A DNA stretch of 64,000 nt, from contig JAHEGY010000008.1 of NCBI GenBank assembly GCA_024644875.1, forward strand, positions 1 through 64,000, given 5' to 3'. The first letter of the stretch is position 1. Each line of letters begins with the position of its first letter. The DNA is from Cyclobacteriaceae bacterium. GTDB lineage: Bacteria > Bacteroidota > Bacteroidia > Cytophagales > Cyclobacteriaceae. The position numbers were made by a program, and so were the translations under genes. A model generated the notes under the pieces. That model was not told where the DNA came from and searched no databases. It saw only the letters and a list, made by a program, of their open reading frames with translations. Shown here in pieces: positions 38,713 through 44,767 of the stretch.

Positions 38713-38809
38713 CTCAGCATTATGCCTGGATTTAATTGAAAAACTTCGAAAAAGAAAAGACGAATTGAATTTCATGATTATTATTGCATAATCTAGAAAA
38801 ATGTGCATT

Positions 38810-41266
38810 ATGAAGAATATAATTACCCTCTTAATTCTGATGGCTACCTTTTCATGTAAAACGAATCAGCCAGTACCCACGGCAACTCCTCAGGAAACTC
38901 AACACAAAATACAGCTCGACAACATGAAGAAGCTGGCAGGTTTTTTTAACTTGTATTGGGATAATAATACCGGGAAAGTCTGGCTTGAGATCGATAAACT
39001 GAATGTTGAATTTCTGTATGTTAATTCACTGACGACCGGGATTGGTTCCAATGATATAGGCCTTGACCGGGGTCAGTTTGGACAGAACAGGGTGGTAAAG
39101 TTCATCAAAAATGGCCCTAAGGTCCTGTTGGTCCAACCAAATTATAAGTACAGAGCGATATCTGAAAATCGGCATGAAAAAAAGGCGGTGCATGAATCGT
39201 TTGCCCAATCCGTTCTATGGGGTTTTGATATTGCAGATCAACGACTGAACAGCTATATTGTAGATGCCACGAATTTTTTCCTCAACGACGCACATAATGT
39301 AAGCAGAACTCTGGGCAGAATGGACCAGGGGAACTATAAGGTTGACATGTCCAGATCGAGTATAGATCAGAATAAACTAAAAAGCTTCCCTGAAAATACC
39401 ATCGTCGAGGCGACACTCACATTTAAAGGGCAGGCAAAGGGGTATTATGTGCGGCAGGTTGTGCCTACACCCGGATTAATTACAGTAAACCAGAGGCATT
39501 CATTTGTAAAACTTCCGGATCCGGGTTATAAAATGAGAAAATATGATCCCAGAAGCGGTTATTTCGAAATTTCATACTTCGATTATGCGGTTCCATTTAC
39601 TGAACCTATTGACCAGAAATTTATCGTCAGGCATAGATTAGAGAAGAAGGATCCTGGTCAGGATATCAGTGATCCTGTGGAACCGATAATATATTATCTT
39701 GACCCTGGTGCGCCGGAGCCCATAAGGTCTGCACTGCTGGAAGGCGCATCCTGGTGGAACGAGGCATTTGAGGCAGCTGGCTTTACCAATGCTTTCCAGA
39801 TCAAAATGTTGCCGGAAGATGCTGATCCCATGGATGTAAGATATAATATTATACAGTGGGTTCATAGATCTACCAGGGGGTGGTCATATGGCCATTCCGT
39901 TATAGATCCCAGAACAGGTGAGATTATTAAAGGTCATGTGTCACTCGGCTCTCTACGAATAAGGCAGGATTTTCTGATTGCTCAGGGATTGCTATCGCCT
40001 TATCATGATGGCAATGTTGATCTGGCCGAAGCCAGGGAAATGGCGCTTGCCAGGATCCGACAGCTTTCGGCCCATGAAGTAGGTCACACCCTGGGACTGG
40101 CGCATAATTATGCTGCCAGTGTTCAGAACAGGGCATCGGTGATGGATTATCCCCACCCCCTGATAAAACTCGACGATCAGGGAGAAATTGACCTCTCTGA
40201 AGCATATGACACAAAAATCGGGGAATGGGATAAAATGGCTATTCGATATGGATATGGTATTCCCACCGGAAATGAAGATAATTTTTTATTCCAGTCCATT
40301 CAGGAAATTTTGGATAGTGAATTATATTATATTTCTGATAAAGATTCCCGGCCTGAAGGCAGTGCTCATCCATATGCCCATTTATGGGATAACAGCACAA
40401 ACGCGGCCGACGAACTAAACCGTATCATAGAAATCAGGAAAATTGCACTAAATAATATGGGGCTGAACAGCATCCCGGAGAACTTCCCATTATCTTCACT
40501 CGAAGACGTTATCGTGCCGGTTTATCTGATGCATCGGTATCAGCTGGAAGCCGCCTCAAAACTGATAGGAGGATTATTATATACATATGCTCACAAAGGA
40601 GATGGTCAGCTCATTACAGAAATGATACCTGCAGAAAACCAGGAGATGGCATTAAAGGCTATTCTTCGTACACTACAGCCCGAATTTCTGGAGGTACCTG
40701 AAGACCTCCTTCAGTTATTGCCCCCGAAAGCTTTAGGATATGATCAAACGAATGAAAACTTTAGGAGTAAGACAGGCTTGACCTTTGATCCCCTGTCAGC
40801 CGCAGAAAGTTCGGCAAGTTTTTCGATAAGGCTCTTGCTAAATCCACAAAGGGCATCAAGAATGGTGGAATATAAATCCAGGGAGAATACCTTACCCGGC
40901 TTTGATAATGTATTGACTGAACTGATCGGTAATACATGGAAAAAAACTTATAAAAACACCTATTACAGGGAGATCAACCGGATCGTAAGGATGGAACTTT
41001 TAAACCAGATGCTCCGGATGGCAGAAAACCCGACAGCGTCGACACAGGCCAGCGCTATCACATTAGCCGGGATCTATCAGCTTGAAGAATGGCTCCAGGC
41101 CAAATACAGATCGGAAAAAAGTGACACAGAAAAGGCACACCTTTTATATGCCCTGGAAAGTATCAAAAGGTTCAAAGATAATCCTGGTCTTTTTAAGCCA
41201 ATTAATCCAGATCCACTTCCTATGGGATCACCAATTGGAAATAATATGCTAAACTGTGATTTTTAA
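38810..41266 (+). CDS. Zinc-dependent metalloprotease lipoprotein (DUF5117/DUF4953 type)
   Basis: A large exported metallopeptidase. The lipoprotein signal ends in TFSC. The catalytic zinc site AHEVGHTLGLAHNY (HExxHxxxxxH with His425, Glu426, His429 and His435, counting from the ATG three codons upstream) is the extended metzincin form, and SVMDYPHPL downstream supplies a Met-turn-like segment. About 270 residues of beta-rich N-terminal domain precede the peptidase and an alpha-helical domain follows. The start is taken at 38810 because it gives a tight signal peptide. Substrate unknown. It is followed by two M14-type genes on the same strand. Confidence 0.9.
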   Translation: MKNIITLLILMATFSCKTNQPVPTATPQETQHKIQLDNMKKLAGFFNLYWDNNTGKVWLEIDKLNVEFLYVNSLTTGIGSNDIGLDRGQFGQNRVVKFIKNGPKVLLVQPNYKYRAISENRHEKKAVHESFAQSVLWGFDIADQRLNSYIVDATNFFLNDAHNVSRTLGRMDQGNYKVDMSRSSIDQNKLKSFPENTIVEATLTFKGQAKGYYVRQVVPTPGLITVNQRHSFVKLPDPGYKMRKYDPRSGYFEISYFDYAVPFTEPIDQKFIVRHRLEKKDPGQDISDPVEPIIYYLDPGAPEPIRSALLEGASWWNEAFEAAGFTNAFQIKMLPEDADPMDVRYNIIQWVHRSTRGWSYGHSVIDPRTGEIIKGHVSLGSLRIRQDFLIAQGLLSPYHDGNVDLAEAREMALARIRQLSAHEVGHTLGLAHNYAASVQNRASVMDYPHPLIKLDDQGEIDLSEAYDTKIGEWDKMAIRYGYGIPTGNEDNFLFQSIQEILDSELYYISDKDSRPEGSAHPYAHLWDNSTNAADELNRIIEIRKIALNNMGLNSIPENFPLSSLEDVIVPVYLMHRYQLEAASKLIGGLLYTYAHKGDGQLITEMIPAENQEMALKAILRTLQPEFLEVPEDLLQLLPPKALGYDQTNENFRSKTGLTFDPLSAAESSASFSIRLLLNPQRASRMVEYKSRENTLPGFDNVLTELIGNTWKKTYKNTYYREINRIVRMELLNQMLRMAENPTASTQASAITLAGIYQLEEWLQAKYRSEKSDTEKAHLLYALESIKRFKDNPGLFKPINPDPLPMGSPIGNNMLNCDF

Positions 41267-41331: not shown

Positions 41332-42996
41332 ATGAGAAAATACAAATATTTGCTCTTCATAGGTATTGCCATACTGCTGCATTTTAAAAGCATTATGATG
41401 CTGGGGCAGGTCACCTACAGGGATCATATGGAAATGTCTCAGACCCTGAAAGATCTTCAGTCAAAACATTCCGGGATCACTAAACTGATCTCGCTGACAA
41501 AAACCCAGGGAGGTAAGGATATCTGGGCCCTGGAGATCGGTAAAGTTAGCAGTAAGAATCAGCCAGGATTGGCGATACTGGGGGGTGTAGATGGTAGTTA
41601 TATTTCAGGACCGGAATTATCCCTGAGGTTTGCGGAGGAATTATTGTCCTCTAGCACCACTGACAGTATCCGAAACTTGCTTGATAGCGTATCATTCTAC
41701 ATTATCCCAAATGTAAGTCCTGATGCCTCGGAACAGTATTTCAGTGATTTGAAATATACCAGAAATAAGAACTCAAGGGGAACTGATGATGACAGGGATG
41801 GCAGACTAAATGAGGATCCTTACGAGGATCTTAACAGTGATGGCAAAATTACTTCTTTAAGGATAAAAGATCCTAAAGGAACCTGGATCACGCACCCGGA
41901 CGATGAAAGGGTCATGATCCCTGCTGATAAAAAGGAGGGAGAAAAAGGACAATACATCCTGATCACTGAGGGATTTGATAACGATCTGGATAAAAACTTT
42001 AATGAAGACGGGCCTGGTGGGATTATATTTAATAAGAACCTCCCCTATAAATTTGAACATTTCAAGCCAGGTGCCGGAGATTATCCGGTATCAGAAATAG
42101 AGACCAAGGCAGTTCTTGATTTCTTATATGAAAAGTGGAATGTTTTCGCAGTTCTGACTTTTGGGCCCTCAGATAACCTGTCTGCACCTCAACAATTCAA
42201 CAAATCAGATGCGGAGAAGCAGGTAATTTCAAGTATCCTGGAATCTGATGCAACGATCAATTCATTTATATCCAAAAAATATAATGAGATAAGCGGGGAG
42301 AAAAGTCACCCGGAGACAAGGATTTCCAATGGAGGTTTCATGCAATGGGCATACTTTCATTATGGCCGCCTGAGCTTTGGCACGCCAGCCTTTTATATAC
42401 CTGAAATTAAAGTAGAACCCGATACTCTGGAATCTTATAAAAAGAAAAAGGAAGAGTTTAATCCTGAGGTCAATTTTATGAGATGGGCTGACAGCACTTT
42501 GCAGGAAGAATATTTTCTTGACTGGACAGCGATTCAGCATCCTGACTTTCCAAATCACCATGTTGAAGTAGGTGGATTATATCCTTATGTGAGGAACAAT
42601 CCACCGGCAGGCATTATGGACAGTATTTCCAGGACACATAATGAATTTATAGTCTGGCTATCCGCTCAGCGACCTGTTATACAAATTATCAATATTCAAA
42701 CTGAAAGCATTGGCAAGAATTTATTCAGGCTTGATATGGATATATACAACCAGGGATATTTCCCTGCCTTAAGTGAAATTGGCATTAATACCCGGTGGGT
42801 AAAAAAGCCGAAAATTAGTCTTACCCTTGATAATGGTCAGGACATCATCAGTGGCCACCCGATCCAGTTACTGGATAAATTGGACGGAGATAGCGGGCAC
42901 CATATTAGCTGGCTTATAAGGGAAAAAGGAACCGTTAAGGTAGAAGCAGGTGCCCCACAAATGGGTATACAAGTAATTGAAGTTGAATTGAAATAA
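41332..42996 (+). CDS. Catalytically inactive M14 carboxypeptidase-like protein
   Basis: An exported 554-residue paralogue of the next gene, clear from shared segments such as FYIIPNVSPDASEQY versus FYIVPTINPDARDNY. M14 enzymes bind zinc with HxxE plus a later His. Here the HxxE pair aligns with Asp87 and Tyr90 (GVDGSYISGPELSL) and the third ligand with Gly278 (TFGPSDN). The general-base glutamate region (SFGTPAFY) also lacks the Glu. The gene is intact and full length, so it looks like a maintained pseudoenzyme rather than a decayed gene. Acidic Ca2+-loop-like inserts (DDDRDGRLNED, DLNSDGKI, FDNDLDKNFNED) are kept. It lies 10 bases before the active paralogue. Confidence 0.82.
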   Translation: MRKYKYLLFIGIAILLHFKSIMMLGQVTYRDHMEMSQTLKDLQSKHSGITKLISLTKTQGGKDIWALEIGKVSSKNQPGLAILGGVDGSYISGPELSLRFAEELLSSSTTDSIRNLLDSVSFYIIPNVSPDASEQYFSDLKYTRNKNSRGTDDDRDGRLNEDPYEDLNSDGKITSLRIKDPKGTWITHPDDERVMIPADKKEGEKGQYILITEGFDNDLDKNFNEDGPGGIIFNKNLPYKFEHFKPGAGDYPVSEIETKAVLDFLYEKWNVFAVLTFGPSDNLSAPQQFNKSDAEKQVISSILESDATINSFISKKYNEISGEKSHPETRISNGGFMQWAYFHYGRLSFGTPAFYIPEIKVEPDTLESYKKKKEEFNPEVNFMRWADSTLQEEYFLDWTAIQHPDFPNHHVEVGGLYPYVRNNPPAGIMDSISRTHNEFIVWLSAQRPVIQIINIQTESIGKNLFRLDMDIYNQGYFPALSEIGINTRWVKKPKISLTLDNGQDIISGHPIQLLDKLDGDSGHHISWLIREKGTVKVEAGAPQMGIQVIEVELK

Positions 42997-43006
42997 TGTA
43001 ATTGTA

Positions 43007-44767
43007 ATGAAAAACAAAGTCATTTACCTCATTTATACACTCCTCATATCCGGTGCCTTTTTGTCCATTCCGGAAAGTAAAGCACAGCGTGTCGAGGATA
43101 TTTTTAAGGCAGCTGGCACCCCTTCAAATCCAAAGGTTCCGGTCAGCTGGAACAGGTATTATACCTATGATGGAATTTCATCAATATGTGATGAACTGGT
43201 TAGTGCCTATCCGGATCTGATCAGTAAAACATCTGTTGGCAAGTCATACGAAGACCGTGACATCTGGGTGCTTGAGATTACTGATTCCAAAACAAAATCA
43301 CCGGAAGACAAACCTGGATTTTATATCGACGGTAATATTCACAGTAATGAGATCCAGGGTTCTGAGATTAGTTTATACACCGCCTGGTACCTGGTTGAAT
43401 CCTTTAATGAGAATGCTTTCATCAATTCTTTGCTAAAAGAAAAGGTGTTCTACATAGTTCCTACAATAAATCCGGATGCACGTGATAATTATATGAAGGC
43501 ACCAAATACAGCCAATACACCTCGTTCTGGGATGATCCCCTTCGATGATGACCGGGATGGACTTGAAGACGAGGACGGTCTCGATGATATAAATGGAGAC
43601 GGACATGTAACCTATATGCGCCGAAAAAATCCCAATGGACGATATAAAATTGATCCTGATAATCCAAAATGGTTGATAAGGGCTGACCCTGACGAAGCTG
43701 GTCAATATGAATTCCTTGGTTCCGAAGGCTTCGATAATGATGGAGATGGAAGGGTTAATGAAGATCGGGTTGGTGGGTATTATGATCCAAACAGAGATTG
43801 GGGATGGGATTGGCAGCCCGATTATATTCAAAGAGGCGCATTAAAATACCCGTTCTCAGTTCCGGAAAACCGGGCTGTCGCAAGATTTGTGATGGAGCAC
43901 CCTAATATCGCAGGTGCTCAAAGTTATCATAACAGCGGTGGGATGATCTTGAGAGGTCCCGGATCTTCCTCTGATGAAATTTCATTTCATGACACAGACA
44001 AGTCTGTTTATGATGCTATTGGAAAGCTGGGATCTAAAATCATCCCGGGATATGAATATATGGTATTGTATACTGATCTATATCCTGCATTTGGAGGCGA
44101 ATTGAGTTGGTTCCATGGAGGCAGGGGAATATTTACGTTTACTAATGAGTTATTTACCAGTAGATATTTCTTTAATAAGGAATATAAAAACTACAACGAA
44201 AGGATGAAAGATGCCTTTGAATTCGACAAATACCTTTTATTTGAGGACGCATATGTGGAATGGACGCCTTTTGACCACCCGATTTATGGTGAGATTGAAG
44301 TCGGCGGATTCAAAAGAAACTATTCTCGGGCTGATCCGGGATTCCTGCTTGAAAGTGATGCACACCGTAATATGGCTTTTACGATCTATCATGCCTACCA
44401 TACGCCTAAACTTGTTGTAGAGGAAGTGGAGGAAAAGGATCTTGGAAAAGGGCTCAAGGAAATAACAGTAACTATCGCCAACAAAAGAATGATCCCGACA
44501 CATTCCGGTAATGATATTCAAAACAGGATCAATCCTCCTGATTATATAAGCATTACAGGTTTGGAAGTTCTAGCCGGCATGGTGGTTATAGATGAAGATC
44601 TTAAGATCACCAAAGAACAACAATATAACCCCCATCAGATTGAGGTAGAAAACATACCCGGCATGGGTGTTGTTAAGGTACGGTGGATTGTGTCCGGTGA
44701 CAAGGATTTCAGCATAAGTGTGGAAAGCCAGAAGGGAGGCAATCTTACATGGTCCAAAAAGTCATAG
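43007..44767 (+). CDS. M14 family zinc carboxypeptidase
   Basis: An exported M14 peptidase with a signal peptide (cleavage likely near KAQ, residue 26). Zinc ligands are His112 and Glu115 (GNIHSNEIQGSE) and His308 (SYHNSGG), and the catalytic base is probably Glu381 (TFTNELF). It carries acidic loops resembling EF-hand/thrombospondin type 3 calcium sites (DDDRDGLEDEDG, DINGDGH, FDNDGDGRVNED) inserted in the catalytic domain at about residues 178-255. A beta-sandwich-like domain follows after about residue 470. At 586 residues it is complete. It is probably co-transcribed with the inactive paralogue upstream. Confidence 0.9.
   Translation: MKNKVIYLIYTLLISGAFLSIPESKAQRVEDIFKAAGTPSNPKVPVSWNRYYTYDGISSICDELVSAYPDLISKTSVGKSYEDRDIWVLEITDSKTKSPEDKPGFYIDGNIHSNEIQGSEISLYTAWYLVESFNENAFINSLLKEKVFYIVPTINPDARDNYMKAPNTANTPRSGMIPFDDDRDGLEDEDGLDDINGDGHVTYMRRKNPNGRYKIDPDNPKWLIRADPDEAGQYEFLGSEGFDNDGDGRVNEDRVGGYYDPNRDWGWDWQPDYIQRGALKYPFSVPENRAVARFVMEHPNIAGAQSYHNSGGMILRGPGSSSDEISFHDTDKSVYDAIGKLGSKIIPGYEYMVLYTDLYPAFGGELSWFHGGRGIFTFTNELFTSRYFFNKEYKNYNERMKDAFEFDKYLLFEDAYVEWTPFDHPIYGEIEVGGFKRNYSRADPGFLLESDAHRNMAFTIYHAYHTPKLVVEEVEEKDLGKGLKEITVTIANKRMIPTHSGNDIQNRINPPDYISITGLEVLAGMVVIDEDLKITKEQQYNPHQIEVENIPGMGVVKVRWIVSGDKDFSISVESQKGGNLTWSKKS

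Follow-up and report, generated by a model that had tools for sequence, protein, structure and literature searches.

We report a tandem pair of peptidase family M14 genes in which the upstream copy, gene 1, is judged from its sequence to be a pseudopeptidase, with its fold kept under selection and its catalytic residues lost. We judge it very probable that this dead copy serves the live one, gene 2, as a partner. We put the probability at about 60% that gene 1 is an ancient, maintained pseudocarboxypeptidase and the dedicated partner of the adjacent active M14 carboxypeptidase, the two forming an exported heteromer; within it, gene 1 would either hold peptide C-termini or present them to gene 2, or would stabilise gene 2. 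This partnership is suggested by ligand losses in all 62 gene 1 relatives versus intact sites in gene 2 relatives, together with reciprocal monophyly, low dN/dS, near-strict co-inheritance that includes unlinked pairs, and an intact predicted fold.

Gene 2 lies 10 bases downstream of gene 1 on the same strand of the window, i.e. the whole stretch of 64,000 nt that was analysed. The pair and its parts are located as follows, with residue frequencies given for 60 aligned gene 1 relatives.

41332..42996, + strand: gene 1, M14 pseudocarboxypeptidase, apparently exported; complete ORF, 554 aa
41332..41409, + strand: gene 1 putative N-terminal signal peptide, approximately residues 1-26, recognized by eye (RKYK, hydrophobic core, LGQ)
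41590..41601, + strand: gene 1 pseudo HxxE motif, D-G-S-Y, codons 87-90; ExxH in most relatives
41785..41844, + strand: gene 1 first acidic, calcium-loop-like insert, DDDRDG...DLNSDG, residues 152-171; its acidic positions are conserved in gene 1 and gene 2 alike
41977..42009, + strand: gene 1 second acidic insert, DNDLDKNFNED, residues 216-226; conserved in both copies
42031..42036, + strand: gene 1 Asn234-Lys235, at the position of the substrate carboxylate anchor Asn144-Arg145; N in 47/60, K in 42/60 or R in 11/60 relatives
42163..42165, + strand: gene 1 Gly278, where the third zinc ligand His196 would be; G 46, S 12, E 1 and T 1 of 60 relatives
42352..42354, + strand: gene 1 Tyr341, equivalent to the substrate-binding Tyr248 and retained; Y in 59/60 relatives, F in 1
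42385..42387, + strand: gene 1 Pro352, where the general base Glu270 would be; P in 55/60 relatives, never Glu
43007..44767, + strand: gene 2, M14 carboxypeptidase, active site intact by sequence; complete ORF, 586 aa

Both proteins match PF00246 in Pfam (E 4.6e-20 for gene 1, 1.4e-37 for gene 2) and are 28% identical over 493 columns. An AlphaFold2 model of gene 1 that used 39 relatives reached a pLDDT of 88.7 and a pTM of 0.88, and in its comparison with VIA-align 2 carboxypeptidase T ranked first (Z 31.5, 2.9 A, 292 residues, 19% identity). Gene 1 thus belongs to family M14 both by its Pfam score (72.8 bits, cut-off 21.6) and by its predicted fold. Human carboxypeptidase N, whose C-terminal domain is transthyretin-like, aligned over residues 26-544 of the model (Z 26.5), making an M14B-like C-terminal beta-sandwich likely in gene 1.

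Read by eye, the N-termini of both proteins look like Sec signal peptides, and the signal peptide of gene 1 relatives ends in a clear AxAQ. The acidic positions common to both copies are D152/D154/D156, D166-D170, D216/D218/D220 and E225/D226 in gene 1 numbering, and the inserts that contain them may bind calcium in both proteins. The preliminary description of this locus had depicted two full-length genes 10 bases apart, both with signal peptides, the first with a preserved M14 fold and calcium-loop-like inserts, and this picture is borne out, the fold by prediction and the signal peptides by eye. Upstream of gene 1, at 38801-41266 of the window and ending 65 bases before it, is a gene for a met-zincin (DUF5117/DUF4953) whose HExxH motif reads HEVGHTLGLAH. 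The neighbourhood is not conserved in relatives. Flanking genes were common only within close groups and not between distant relatives, and a conserved wider operon was therefore rejected.

Active-site residues were compared in the numbering of bovine carboxypeptidase A (CPA; His69, Glu72, His196, Glu270). Asp87, Tyr90, Gly278 and Pro352 of gene 1 correspond to His112, Glu115, His308 and Glu381 of gene 2 in a MAFFT alignment against gene 2 relatives. All four correspondences were reproduced when a HMMER profile of gene 1 was aligned to carboxypeptidase T, an alignment that does not contain gene 2. Gene 2 has the residue set of an active M14 metallocarboxypeptidase, together with Asn262-Arg263, and its active-site and anchor residues are conserved among its relatives. 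Gene 1 lacks both the zinc ligands and Glu270, in the window copy as well as in all relatives. Its Glu356 is offset by four residues from the base column, and relatives do not conserve it, so gene 1 is without a base glutamate. Neither the profile alignment nor the structural comparison placed zinc ligands elsewhere in gene 1.

None of 62 distinct full-length gene 1 sequences has His69, Glu72, His196 or Glu270, and losses that recur in all of them are not due to chance. Among the 60 aligned sequences, the His69 column holds E (32), D (13) or K (12), and also Q, S and A; the Glu72 column holds H (46), Y (3), Q (3) and others but never E. His does not occur in the His196 column, and the Glu270 column contains, besides the predominant Pro, D (2), R, Y and N. 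Two further divergent copies beyond the 60 lack all of these residues as well. The residue numbers and ligand losses given in the preliminary description, the missing base glutamate of gene 1 and the complete set in gene 2 were all correct. It had named zinc ligands elsewhere in the protein or scattered, decay-like losses as contrary findings; we saw neither, the losses being fixed in every first copy. In gene 2 relatives, a set that takes in some locus duplicates and truncated rows, His69 and Glu72 are present in 69/69, His196 in 61/62 with data and Glu270 in 62/62.

The sole His196 loss among gene 2 relatives is in a duplicated copy. One of two tandem gene 2 copies (L101:508-2232, genome G507) has Leu for the third zinc ligand (LYLNTGGW) and may, from its sequence, be a second, independent dead copy. 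At the start of another contig (L205:1-1700, G581) an M14-like ORF has NIDADE in place of HxxE and resembles gene 2 more closely than gene 1 in BLAST. Several standalone M14 proteins of ~640 aa (L146-L155) combine an HxGE motif with Asp in the His196 column (NSMDTR), where the alignment may be off.

The frequent occurrence of ExxH or DxxH in gene 1 relatives (E 32 or D 13, and H 46, of 60), together with a nearly invariant His343, could be taken to mean that gene 1 has switched chemistry and that the swapped motif and His343 together make up another kind of metal or catalytic site. The general base is not retained and the motif is not fixed, Lys occupying its first position in 12 relatives and the window copy reading DxxY, so that a new ExxH metal site is a weak candidate and a switch of chemistry appears highly improbable.

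Counted searches covered Bacteroidota genomes, with taxonomic breadth counted by group code. Searches at the level of the order detected gene 1 in 25 of 194 genomes, and those of the phylum in 31 of 395 at a threshold of E 1e-60; in total, at least 56 of the sampled Bacteroidota genomes, belonging to many families, carry it, and a profile search added further divergent copies. Eight loci are in named genomes, among them Cellulophaga, Psychroflexus and a Flammeovirgaceae MAG. All 31 holders in the 395-genome sample also have gene 2. Six more of the 395 genomes had gene 2 alone at E 1e-60; a gene 1 relative lies immediately upstream in five of them, and the sixth locus starts at a contig end. 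With all samples taken together, both genes are present in 54 of the 56 genomes with gene 1. In one of the two exceptions (G109) the contig ends inside gene 1, and in the other (G111) gene 1 is present and gene 2 was not found in a 92% complete assembly of ~350 contigs. The Fisher p value for co-occurrence of 2e-50 ignores phylogeny and is read only as 'not chance'.

Between gene 1 and gene 2, most gaps measure -4 to 13 bases. In five genomes (G377, G025, G083, G726 and G815), gene 1 and gene 2 sit on separate contigs, neither with the partner beside it, and both are retained. Separate genes were present at every locus read, unlike the single polypeptide of Carboxypeptidase D, and no natural fusion of gene 1 and gene 2 was seen. 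A divergent second dead-live pair (L112, L113, L115, L127), whose first gene encodes 600-690 aa, occurs beside the main pair in G282; this version, present in G282, G275, G456 and G475, shows the same residue losses.

In a phylogenetic tree rooted with a standalone M14 protein of ~640 aa that has an intact HxxE motif, all gene 1 rows were separated from all gene 2 rows with 99% SH-aLRT support; the two groups are reciprocally monophyletic with matching internal branching, in a tree obtained by a quick method and with two gene 1 rows as long branches. This topology shows a single duplication, after which the zinc site and the general base were lost once, in an ancestral gene 1. Within-family distances of gene 1 and of gene 2 are correlated (r = 0.89, with 0 of 5000 permutations as high), a correlation that shared species history also yields. 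Pairwise dN/dS values between close relatives were mostly 0.008-0.10 for gene 1 and mostly 0.003-0.06 for gene 2, and 0.16 for both genes in a more distant pair (L119/L122). The dead copy is thus under purifying selection, in line with the maintained pseudoenzyme proposed at the outset, and evolves at ~2x the rate of gene 2.

This faster rate is also what would be expected if gene 1 were a decaying duplicate hitchhiking with gene 2, and one gene 1 copy is apparently frameshifted. That copy (L100:6233-7866, G305) is split into two frames (186 aa and 365 aa) upstream of two tandem gene 2 copies, by an apparent frameshift or an assembly error. We rejected decay and give it practically no credence, since dN/dS is far below 1, a single ancestral loss has been retained across many families and unlinked pairs are kept; the confident predicted fold speaks against it as well. 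Hitchhiking does not account for the unlinked pairs, because both genes were kept in five genomes despite being apart.

In active enzymes, Tyr248, Asn144 and Arg145 anchor the C-terminus of the substrate. All three positions are largely kept in gene 1, with Lys or Arg at position 145 in 53/60 relatives, and Tyr248 is less conserved in gene 2 than in gene 1. These residues may still bind a C-terminus in gene 1. The mapping of Arg127 across the large insert is unreliable, and Arg144 of gene 1 (R in 30/39) is a candidate only.

Retention of the anchors would equally suit an exported protein that binds peptide C-termini or cell-wall peptides and serves the pathway of gene 2 without contacting it, and so would the persistence of the pair where its genes are separated. 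When the in-frame L118 pair was read through as one fusion protein and modelled with AlphaFold2 from a shallow 18-row alignment, the model was poor (pLDDT 69, pTM 0.47) and argues neither for nor against an interface. One alignment (A3) that combined fused with single rows was discarded since single gene 1 rows fell on the gene 2 half. Such a free-standing role is nevertheless rather unlikely, as the short gaps in most genomes and the near-strict co-inheritance suggest fixed stoichiometry or assembly.

The gene order, with gene 1 almost always encoded just before gene 2, and the lack of an obvious propeptide in either protein (by eye) are consistent with gene 1 inhibiting gene 2 in trans or acting as its folding chaperone, in the manner of a zymogen prodomain made as a protein of its own. 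Known M14 prodomains have a different, small fold, and a chaperone would not obviously need the substrate anchors and calcium loops that gene 1 keeps. We consider this function distinctly unlikely.

For the partnership of gene 1 with gene 2, a physical heteromer would be the likeliest mechanism. Both proteins would leave the cytoplasm through Sec and assemble in the periplasm or at the cell surface; gene 1, unable to cut, would use its Tyr248, Asn144 and Lys/Arg145 anchors to hold or present peptide C-termini to gene 2. Alternatively, it might stabilise gene 2. Some observations stand against a partnership: the fusion model is poor and no natural fusion was seen, the ~2x faster evolution of gene 1 is equally compatible with a more loosely tied, independent role, a shared pathway could by itself lead to co-inheritance, and G111 has gene 1 with gene 2 not found. 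The preliminary description had suggested a regulatory, chaperone or substrate-capture partner. Co-inheritance, mirrored trees and retention of both genes when separated support a functional tie to the active copy, and these three roles stand as alternatives.

The proposed arrangement would resemble Carboxypeptidase D domain III (CPD-III) and the inactive subunit of two-gene M16B peptidases. CPD-III is an inactive M14 domain beside active ones, proposed to present substrate, and its loss lowers Drosophila viability (PMC11266112). As in the pair described here, an inactive M14 unit is kept beside an active one, and each unit has a C-terminal beta-sandwich domain, as predicted for gene 1. The Carboxypeptidase D domains are in one chain and in animals, whereas gene 1 and gene 2 are separate genes in bacteria. 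In two-gene M16B peptidases (SPH2681/SPH2682, TTHA1264/TTHA1265) active and zinc-less homologues form one peptidase (PMC12731061, PMC11266112). These pairs and mitochondrial processing peptidase alpha/beta share with gene 1 and gene 2 the separate genes for active and zinc-less homologues, which are neighbours in bacteria. M16 peptidases differ in having an unrelated fold and a shared clamshell chamber; in M14, by contrast, a single chain holds the whole active site, so that gene 2 should be able to form its own without gene 1. Carboxypeptidase T of Thermoactinomyces, the closest solved fold to gene 1, is an active single enzyme of 323 residues; gene 1 is longer, with large acidic inserts and a predicted C-terminal beta-sandwich domain.

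The M14 pseudopeptidases covered by a 2024 review are from vertebrates or yeast (PMC11266112), and our searches of the open-access literature gave no hit for a bacterial M14 pseudoenzyme. AEBP1/ACLP, CPXM1, CPXM2 and Ecm14 are extracellular, as gene 1 is predicted to be, and have the M14 fold without activity (by sequence in the case of gene 1), but are vertebrate or fungal and not described in PMC11266112 as half of a two-gene pair. AEBP1, CPXM1, CPXM2 and Ecm14 keep His69 and Glu72 and have residue 145 changed (to E, H, N and H, respectively), as it is in all five reviewed M14 pseudopeptidases including CPD-III (PMC11266112). CPD-III keeps His69 and loses substrate anchors (Q127, T145; PMC11266112), whereas in gene 1 all zinc ligands are gone and Asn144, Lys/Arg145 and Tyr248 remain. 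The residue pattern of gene 1 is therefore roughly the reverse of that in the reviewed eukaryotic proteins, which keep His69 (four of them also Glu72) and change residue 145. Tentatively, and with considerable doubt, one might see in gene 1 a prokaryotic M14 pseudopeptidase that has given up the zinc site and kept the C-terminal carboxylate anchors, acting as a non-cutting receptor for peptide C-termini within a two-gene secreted carboxypeptidase of Bacteroidota. The conserved pair in culturable Cellulophaga and Psychroflexus would make the service of a dead carboxypeptidase to a live one directly testable, and with it the substrate-presentation idea proposed for CPD-III.
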